Made by a program: the position numbers and the translations under genes
DNA from: Candidatus Woesearchaeota archaeon
Lineage (GTDB): Archaea > Nanobdellota > Nanobdellia > SCGC-AAA011-G17 > GW2011-AR20
Direction: 5' to 3'
DNA length: 32,004 bases
Assembly (NCBI GenBank): GCA_018302685.1
Contig: JAGVZK010000018.1
Span: 1 to 32,004 of the forward strand
In this document: positions 21,133 through 23,078 of the stretch, piece by piece
Position numbering within the stretch: position 1 is the first letter of the stretch
How the letters are laid out: the number at the start of each line of letters is the position of its first letter
Notes under the pieces: generated by a model
What the model saw: the letters and a program-made list of their open reading frames with translations, nothing else
Database searches by the model: none
What the model was told of the DNA's origin: nothing

Positions 21133-21495
21133 TTAGAAACTTAAGCTATTCAATTTATCTTTTATATCTTCAAGCTCAAGGTCTATCTCGCTAAGCTTTT
21201 CAACCTTGGCATGCTGCTCATGAACTACCTTTTTCTTTTCAACCATTTCATGGATTTTCTCTTCCCTATCTTTAACTACGAAGGGCATCAGACCCTCGAA
21301 ATACCTTATTGCCTTTTTTGTAACCTCTATCTCTTTTTTCAGGGCATCAATTGTAATCATTTTTCTCTCTCTCAACTCCTTAATGCTGTCAACTCTTTTG
21401 ACCAGTTCAATATTCTCGATGGCAACATTGAGCAAGTCCCTTCTCTTGGAACTGGGGTTGTTGACAAAACTGTAGAGAGCTTCTCCTTTATTCAT
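21133..21495 (-). CDS. Coiled-coil protein
   Basis: 120 aa, heptad-rich; 8-nt overlap with the upstream coiled-coil gene. Confidence 0.6.
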   Translation of the reverse strand: MNKGEALYSFVNNPSSKRRDLLNVAIENIELVKRVDSIKELRERKMITIDALKKEIEVTKKAIRYFEGLMPFVVKDREEKIHEMVEKKKVVHEQHAKVEKLSEIDLELEDIKDKLNSLSF

Positions 21496-21916
21496 GTTCG
21501 AAAAGATTCTTGTCTATAAACATAATTTTCTGCTTTATCCTCTTTATTTCATCGTGCCATTCCCTGATCTCTGCATCCTCCCTATCCTTTATCTTGTGCA
21601 GCCTTTCAAGGATGTGCTCTGTGTTCATGAGGCTCTCCTTGACCAGATTCAGCGTCCTCATCGATTCCTTGTACATCTCTATCTTGACAAAGAGAGTATT
21701 GTCCTTCACGACCCTTCCGTGGTGTGGCTCCTGCATAAAATCCTGGGCCAGCGGCCTTTCAAATCTCGGCCTTTGGGGCATGTAATTCTGCTGAGAATCA
21801 GGAAAATTAAGATCCGCAAGGTCAAGCTCATCCATCTTCGGCTGAGTATGGATTATCGGCTCCTGATATTCATTGGAAACAGGCTTAGGAACGCTCAACT
21901 TCTTATTAAAAACCAT
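21488..21916 (-). CDS. Pro/Gln-rich N-terminus plus coiled-coil protein
   Basis: 142 aa; C-terminal helical heptads; overlaps the partner gene. Confidence 0.6.
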   Translation of the reverse strand: MVFNKKLSVPKPVSNEYQEPIIHTQPKMDELDLADLNFPDSQQNYMPQRPRFERPLAQDFMQEPHHGRVVKDNTLFVKIEMYKESMRTLNLVKESLMNTEHILERLHKIKDREDAEIREWHDEIKRIKQKIMFIDKNLFEHE

Positions 21917-22068: not shown

Positions 22069-22185
22069 ATGAAAGACGAGTTTAAACTTTTAGCAAAGAA
22101 GAGTAAGCACGAAGAAGAGGAAAATGAAGAAGATTCGGATGATGATGACAAAGATGATGAGGAAGAAGATAGTGACGACTGGTAA
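22069..22185 (+). CDS. Very small acidic protein (38 aa)
   Basis: MKDEFKLLAKKSKHEEEENEEDSDDDDKDDEEEDSDDW with SD-like ggggg upstream and TATA-like atttaaatac near 22012. Confidence 0.5.
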   Translation: MKDEFKLLAKKSKHEEEENEEDSDDDDKDDEEEDSDDW

Positions 22186-22262
22186 AGGGGATTTTTAATT
22201 TCCCTTATTTTTTCTTTTAGGAAATAGCAATATTTTTAAATCAAGGATTGCAGGGAGTATTT

Positions 22263-23078
22263 ATGAAAACAGTGATGCCTCTTTTTGAAGATCTTGCAAA
22301 GAAAATATGCGGTCCCAACTGCATCAAGCTCATTAAGATAATGGAGCTGAAGGATAACATTTCTGAATTTGAGCTTGCTGACAGGATGAAGATCAACATC
22401 AATGAGATGAGGTCAATGCTTTACAAGCTGAATGAGCAGAATCTGGTTTATTCAACAAGGAAGAAGGACAAAGAAAAGGGATGGTACATTTATTACTGGT
22501 CATTTAATTTTAAGCACGCAAGGGACCTGCTTGTGAATCAGAAAAATATGGAAGTAGAAAAGCTCAAGGAAAAGCTGAATATAGGCTCCCACACAAAATA
22601 CATCTGCGAGAACGGATGCGATTCTTATAACATGGAAAGGGCGATGGAATTGAACTTCAGATGCCCTGAGTGCAACTCCCTTCTTAAGATGATGGAGGTT
22701 AATTACAAACCCGAGATAATAAACAAGAAAATATCAGAAACTGAAGAGCAGCTTGATATGCTTAATAGGGCAATAATAGTTGAGAGAGTCCCTGTTGAAA
22801 AGAAAACAGAAGATGTAGAAGCAAAGGGAAAGAAAAAAGTGCCAGAATCAAAGAGATCAGTTAAGAAAAAGCCAAAGAAAAAGGCGCATGGCAAAAAGCC
22901 TCAGAGCCATAAGCCAAAGAAACCCATGAATAAAAAACAGCCTGCTAGGAAACTCAGGAAGCCGGCTAAACCAAATGTTAAACCAAAGCCAAATGTTAAA
23001 CGGAAGGTCAAGCCAAAGAAGAACAATCCAAAAAAGAAAAGCATTCTTGGGAAGTTAAGGGGAAAAATAAGGTTTTAA
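22263..23078 (+). CDS. tfe: Transcription initiation factor TFE (alpha) with a long Lys/Pro-rich C-terminal extension
   Basis: wHTH (ELADRMKININEMRSMLYKLNEQNLV), YYWSFNF, zinc ribbon CENGC...CPEC, then about 95 aa of KKPKKK/KPNVKPK. Confidence 0.88.
   Translation: MKTVMPLFEDLAKKICGPNCIKLIKIMELKDNISEFELADRMKININEMRSMLYKLNEQNLVYSTRKKDKEKGWYIYYWSFNFKHARDLLVNQKNMEVEKLKEKLNIGSHTKYICENGCDSYNMERAMELNFRCPECNSLLKMMEVNYKPEIINKKISETEEQLDMLNRAIIVERVPVEKKTEDVEAKGKKKVPESKRSVKKKPKKKAHGKKPQSHKPKKPMNKKQPARKLRKPAKPNVKPKPNVKRKVKPKKNNPKKKSILGKLRGKIRF

Follow-up and report, generated by a model that had tools for sequence, protein, structure and literature searches.

A long polybasic extension on the transcription factor TFE-alpha of a Woesearchaeota genome and its relatives

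General transcription factors are usually thought to be conservative in layout. In archaea, TFE-alpha keeps the polymerase clamp open and touches the non-template strand (PMC7289017). In Sulfolobus, residues 148-178 of TFE-alpha, which come after the zinc ribbon, are required for the binding of TFE-beta, and lysines in the winged helix of the latter have been proposed as contacts with the non-template strand (PMC4495717). DPANN archaea are reported to be without TFE-beta (PMC7289017), and the tail of the Thermococcus TFE has been drawn as disordered (PMC7704642).

The gene described here lies in a stretch of 32,004 nucleotides from contig JAGVZK010000018.1 of a Candidatus Woesearchaeota archaeon, the whole of which we refer to as the window. 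Its host lineage consists of tiny, mostly symbiotic archaea. The TFE-alpha core is already known, and it is the long polybasic extension, at either end of the protein, that appears to be the new part. We found no earlier description of a lysine-rich tail in the literature on TFE tails, DPANN, Woesearchaeota or H1-like proteins, and its novelty is provisional, since that search covered only a minority of subscription papers.

The TFE gene of the window and its tail

A single uninterrupted frame on the forward strand (22263-23078) runs from an ATG at 22263 to a stop codon at 23076-23078 and specifies 271 amino acids; an in-frame TTG at 22248 is judged the less likely start. About 26 nt 5' of the ATG, a TATA-like TTTTTAAATC (22233-22242, forward strand), read by eye, is a candidate promoter whose spacing would be as for a leaderless transcript.

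The first 169 or so residues are those of a genuine archaeal TFE-alpha core. An extended winged-helix domain (residues 7-106, 22281-22580) matches PF02002 in the Pfam scan (3e-17, 62.9 bits against a cut-off of 22.9), is modelled by AlphaFold with pLDDT mostly above 90 and resembles the PDB folds 6kf4, 6xjf and 6pln. It is followed by a zinc-ribbon domain (residues 109-147, 22587-22703) with all four cysteines (C115, C119, C134 and C137, of which C115, C134 and C137 are invariant among 8 relatives) and modelled strands at 109-115 and 140-147, and then by a helix (residues 150-169, 22710-22769). The matches to TIGR00373 (1.6e-27, 96 bits against a cut-off of 149.5) and PRK06266 (1.1e-29, 103 bits against 180) extend from residue 7 to 164-166. 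The NCBI equivalog cut-off is a threshold for naming and not a biological feature, and we take the scores below it as divergence because the domain order and fold agree with TFE. The nearest PDB sequences are the TFEs 6kf4 and 6pln (~1e-21); by fold, 6kf4 comes first (1.4e-10), followed by TFIIE-alpha chains from yeast and human and by the Pyrococcus TFE. The AlphaFold model, made from an alignment of 30 homologues, is confident to about residue 170 and of low confidence from about residues 170-180 onward.

Behind this core and in frame with it come about 100 residues (170-271) that are predicted to be disordered, close to the ~95 extra residues of the original prediction. They comprise a body rich in lysine and proline and scarce in alanine (residues 170-259, 22770-23039) and a basic-hydrophobic C-terminal tip, SILGKLRGKIRF (23040-23075), in which AlphaFold places a short, low-confidence helix at 261-266. 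The last 106 residues of the protein include 35 Lys, 13 Pro and 8 Arg, and these counts, the continuous frame and the matches to TFE models together bear out the prediction that this TFE ends in a long polybasic tail. Its most basic 50 residues have a net charge of +24, the maximum for the window; among 176 sampled ORFs of the same genome the top value is +23, for a ribosomal protein, and ribosomal proteins account for most of the highest values. The possibility, raised with the prediction, that the tail is a separate gene can be set aside together with that of a frame artefact, since tail and core share the one open 271-residue frame, the lysine codons of the last 106 residues are mixed (19 AAG, 16 AAA) and the other forward frames carry 6 and 11 stops. 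On the last two grounds the tail is real coding sequence; with a longest A run of 6 and those same stops, it is not a poly-A artefact.

The surroundings of the gene offered one candidate for an acidic partner. Just upstream, on the forward strand, lies a 38-aa, extremely acidic mini-ORF (MKDEFKLLAKKSKHEEEENEEDSDDDDKDDEEEDSDDW, 22069-22185), followed by a terminator-like stem-loop (22185-22206). It was rejected as a TFE partner: it was not found upstream of TFE in 80 relatives, and its sole likely homologue (MKEEFKFLAKMDWDDDDEPEDDDNNDNQDDEE, in genome G011) adjoins a gene for an EF-Tu/aIF2-gamma-like GTPase, away from TFE. An acidic partner on Rpo6, an idea taken from PMC13257274, was likewise rejected, since the Rpo6 frames are short (67-117 aa) and in nearly all of them a long acidic extension has no room. 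Two adjacent ORFs of 120 and 142 aa (21133-21916, reverse strand) are divergent from TFE and have no Pfam matches; coiled-coil-like relatives of the 142-aa ORF sit upstream of TFE in L173, L175 and L192.

Distribution of the extension and its restriction to TFE

PF02002 was detected in 90 of 99 relatives, and the survey of TFE lengths in DPANN proposed with the original prediction found the polybasic tail to be widespread. The same order supplied 83 complete TFEs. A C-terminal tail that is basic (net charge +10 or more) and no shorter than 30 aa occurs in 57 of them; 7 have a basic N-terminal extension in place of such a tail (one, in G057, recognised only once its start was extended) and 19 have neither. 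The C-terminal tail is found in 11 of 11 TFEs of the window's own family. A partly overlapping set of 80 Woesearchaeota and Nanoarchaeota TFEs gave 34 with a C-terminal tail, 5 with an N-terminal extension, 39 with neither and 2 that are cut off, so the frequency of the tail depends on the sample. Many TFEs from other orders of the class are also tailed, some with H1-like AKPKKAAKKK and others with plain KKVV repeats; these TFEs were chosen partly for length, a bias that allows no frequency to be given.

Four TFEs (L185, L200, L208 and L209) have basic extensions at both ends, and the N-terminal extensions of L208 and L209 open with a motif, for instance VLRKILKKIKKP, that is basic and hydrophobic. 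In family f8 (L036 and L048 among others) the TFEs have short acidic C-terminal ends, the reverse charge, and no basic tails. A tree built from 125 TFE rows requires 16 or more changes in the presence of the tail, against a mean of 27.8 and a minimum of 24 when the labels are shuffled, and no fewer than 6 switches of the extension between C and N terminus; these counts are rough because the tree is weakly resolved, with 33 of its 122 inner branches strongly supported. So many changes in presence could mean weak selection on the tail.

The long basic tail is nearly specific to TFE. In a comparison that rests on sampled stretches rather than whole proteomes, the only sequences as basic among ~870 other ORFs were ribosomal proteins and one likely spurious ORF, and none of 219 ORFs sampled from one complete genome in the window's family exceeds +15 in 50 residues. 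Around the TFE genes of 80 relatives, a charge of +20 or more in 50 residues is reached by 26 of 77 TFEs versus 3 of 479 neighbouring ORFs, the three being two ribosomal L15e proteins and an ORF, probably spurious, that overlaps a cut-off TFE at a contig end. In 41 relatives the frames for TFB and TBP, measured from stop to stop, are nearly all of ordinary length (a few TFB frames are longer). These charge samples and frame lengths rule out a proteome-wide habit of basic tails. The presence of the tail shows no association with local GC (p 0.29), which speaks against a by-product of AT-rich DNA; that independence, and a composition that is kept while the sequence diverges among relatives, count in favour of pressure at the level of the protein.

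Possible roles of the extension

We lean, by a modest degree, towards the view that the tail, as a disordered polycation, retains TFE on promoter DNA and perhaps substitutes for the DNA contacts made by TFE-beta. The TFE-alpha core would still bind RNA polymerase and help to open the promoter; the tail would bind the nucleic-acid backbone with no sequence preference and might thereby keep TFE, and hence the open clamp of the polymerase, on the promoter. DNA binding by the tail, an effect on initiation and the replacement of TFE-beta are inferences, the first of them plausible. We favour this reading because DPANN archaea are without TFE-beta, which in Sulfolobus docks on the C-terminal tail of TFE-alpha. 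PF05158, the TFE-beta family, had no match in the genome of the window; 6 of 31 genomes showed weak, partial ones, of which one passed the cut-off. A polycation leaving TFE-alpha behind the zinc ribbon could make electrostatic contacts comparable to those of TFE-beta, for which the tail may substitute. That the tail actually replaces TFE-beta's DNA contacts is the weaker half of the explanation and, in our judgment, rather unlikely. The occurrence of extensions at either terminus, with their repeated switches, suggests that charge and attachment matter and not position, and the N-terminal extensions in particular point to an overall effect of charge and away from docking in one set geometry. 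The tail is dispensable, since the 19 extensionless TFEs of the order come from lineages that should lack TFE-beta too. It counts against promoter DNA as the target that a polycation binds RNA or polyphosphate no less readily than it binds DNA.

A broader proposal, which we hold to be doubtful, is that a movable module, made of a lysine-rich linker and a basic-hydrophobic tip and joined to TFE at one terminus or the other, takes the place of TFE-beta or gives the transcription machinery of these very small cells an anchor. If it were true, a class of DPANN archaea would have turned a general initiation factor into a DNA- or membrane-tethering device of its own.

According to the original prediction the tail could link initiation to chromatin; on this reading it would act as the tail of linker histone H1 does, touching DNA beside archaeal histone or Alba complexes and so coupling initiation to genome packing. 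The genome of the window does encode an archaeal histone (C19), the gene that the prediction had proposed to look for, and Alba (C14); H1-like AKPKKAAKKK tails occur in some relatives; and TFE and histone genes lie ~2-4 kb apart in families f2 and f13 (G013, G032, G040, G044, G051, G054, G072, G083 and G087). However, the TFEs of f2 and f13 carry N-terminal extensions or are mostly tailless, 14 TFEs with a basic extension come from genomes in which histone was not detected, the TFE of the window has no H1 domain, and across 83 genomes the presence of the tail is not significantly associated with histone genes (Fisher p 0.10-0.14) or with Alba (p 0.29). The tail does not follow either protein across the order. 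The link to chromatin gained no positive support, and we regard it as improbable.

It is less credible still that the tail serves as a linker for its tip, the terminal basic-hydrophobic helix binding a membrane or a protein. We presume, as a lead only, a likeness to the membrane-targeting end of MinD. A tip related to SILGKLRGKIRF is present in most TFEs of the window's family, whose tails mostly finish in basic-hydrophobic sequence with a terminal Phe (as in SILGKLRGKIRF, GFLGKIRRKIKF and SILGRIRKKVRRLSF). Across 56 tails, Phe is 6.2-fold, Gly 3.9-fold and Leu 2.5-fold more frequent in the final 15 residues than in the tail body, and Asp and Glu are almost missing there; a tip pattern, written after the data had been seen, which counts against it, matches 17 of 57 tails versus 1 of 399 other ORFs; and a similar motif (MLRKILKKFKGKK, VLRKILKKIKKP) stands at or near the far N-terminus of some N-extended TFEs. 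Yet many tails of families f5, f10 and f15 are tipless, and the helical amphipathicity of the tip exceeds that of shuffles in just 15 of 56 tails, the protein of the window not among them, which speaks against a strong amphipathic tip helix.

Equally slight is the chance that the polycation serves localisation or stress control by binding polyphosphate, or nascent RNA close to the Rpo4/7 stalk; the location of the TFE zinc ribbon at clamp and stalk (PMC7289017) and the presence of AlgP on polyphosphate granules, whose positioning needs its C-terminal domain (PMC9239181), would agree with it. As to a tolerated, near-neutral sequence of low complexity that replication slippage has lengthened, the lengths of the extension (about 30 to 256 aa), its frequent gains and losses and the plain tandem repeats of some tails (e.g. 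KKVVKKKVV) are what it would predict, but the near confinement of the tail to TFE, its sustained net charge, the lack of a GC association, the mixed lysine codons and its presence throughout the window's family make this, too, a very poor prospect.

To return to the favoured reading, the polybasic extension of TFE is lineage-wide, may sit at either terminus and is missing from TFB and TBP. This pattern suggests a change, in DPANN archaea, which are without TFE-beta, in how promoters retain the polymerase. Annotation that goes by the core domain only conceals this extension.

Comparison with known systems

The TFE-alphas of Thermococcus (6kf4), Pyrococcus (6pln, 6xjf) and Sulfolobus (1q1h) share with the protein of the window the winged helix, linker helix, zinc ribbon and following helix; the latter differs in its additional ~100 basic residues and hydrophobic tip, whereas the basic end of the Pyrococcus TFE (6pln) is short (KKATRRKKSRSGKK). 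TFE-beta and TFIIE-beta are possible functional counterparts of the tail, in that basic DNA contacts are joined after the zinc ribbon of TFE-alpha, but TFE-beta is a folded winged-helix/Fe-S subunit and the tail is a disordered extension of TFE-alpha itself, with no predicted fold.

The likeness of the tail to the H1/AlgP type goes no further than composition. Like the C-terminal tail of linker histone H1, it is rich in lysine and proline, strongly basic and, by prediction, disordered; unlike H1, it is poor in alanine and fused to a general transcription factor, and the Pfam scan of the window's TFE gave no linker-histone match for the globular winged-helix domain. With the C-terminal domains of AlgP and PhaF of Pseudomonas it shares the plan of a long, disordered, lysine-rich tail on an unrelated folded domain, but AlgP has 25 perfect KPAA repeats (PMC9239181) and the tail of the window's TFE has none.
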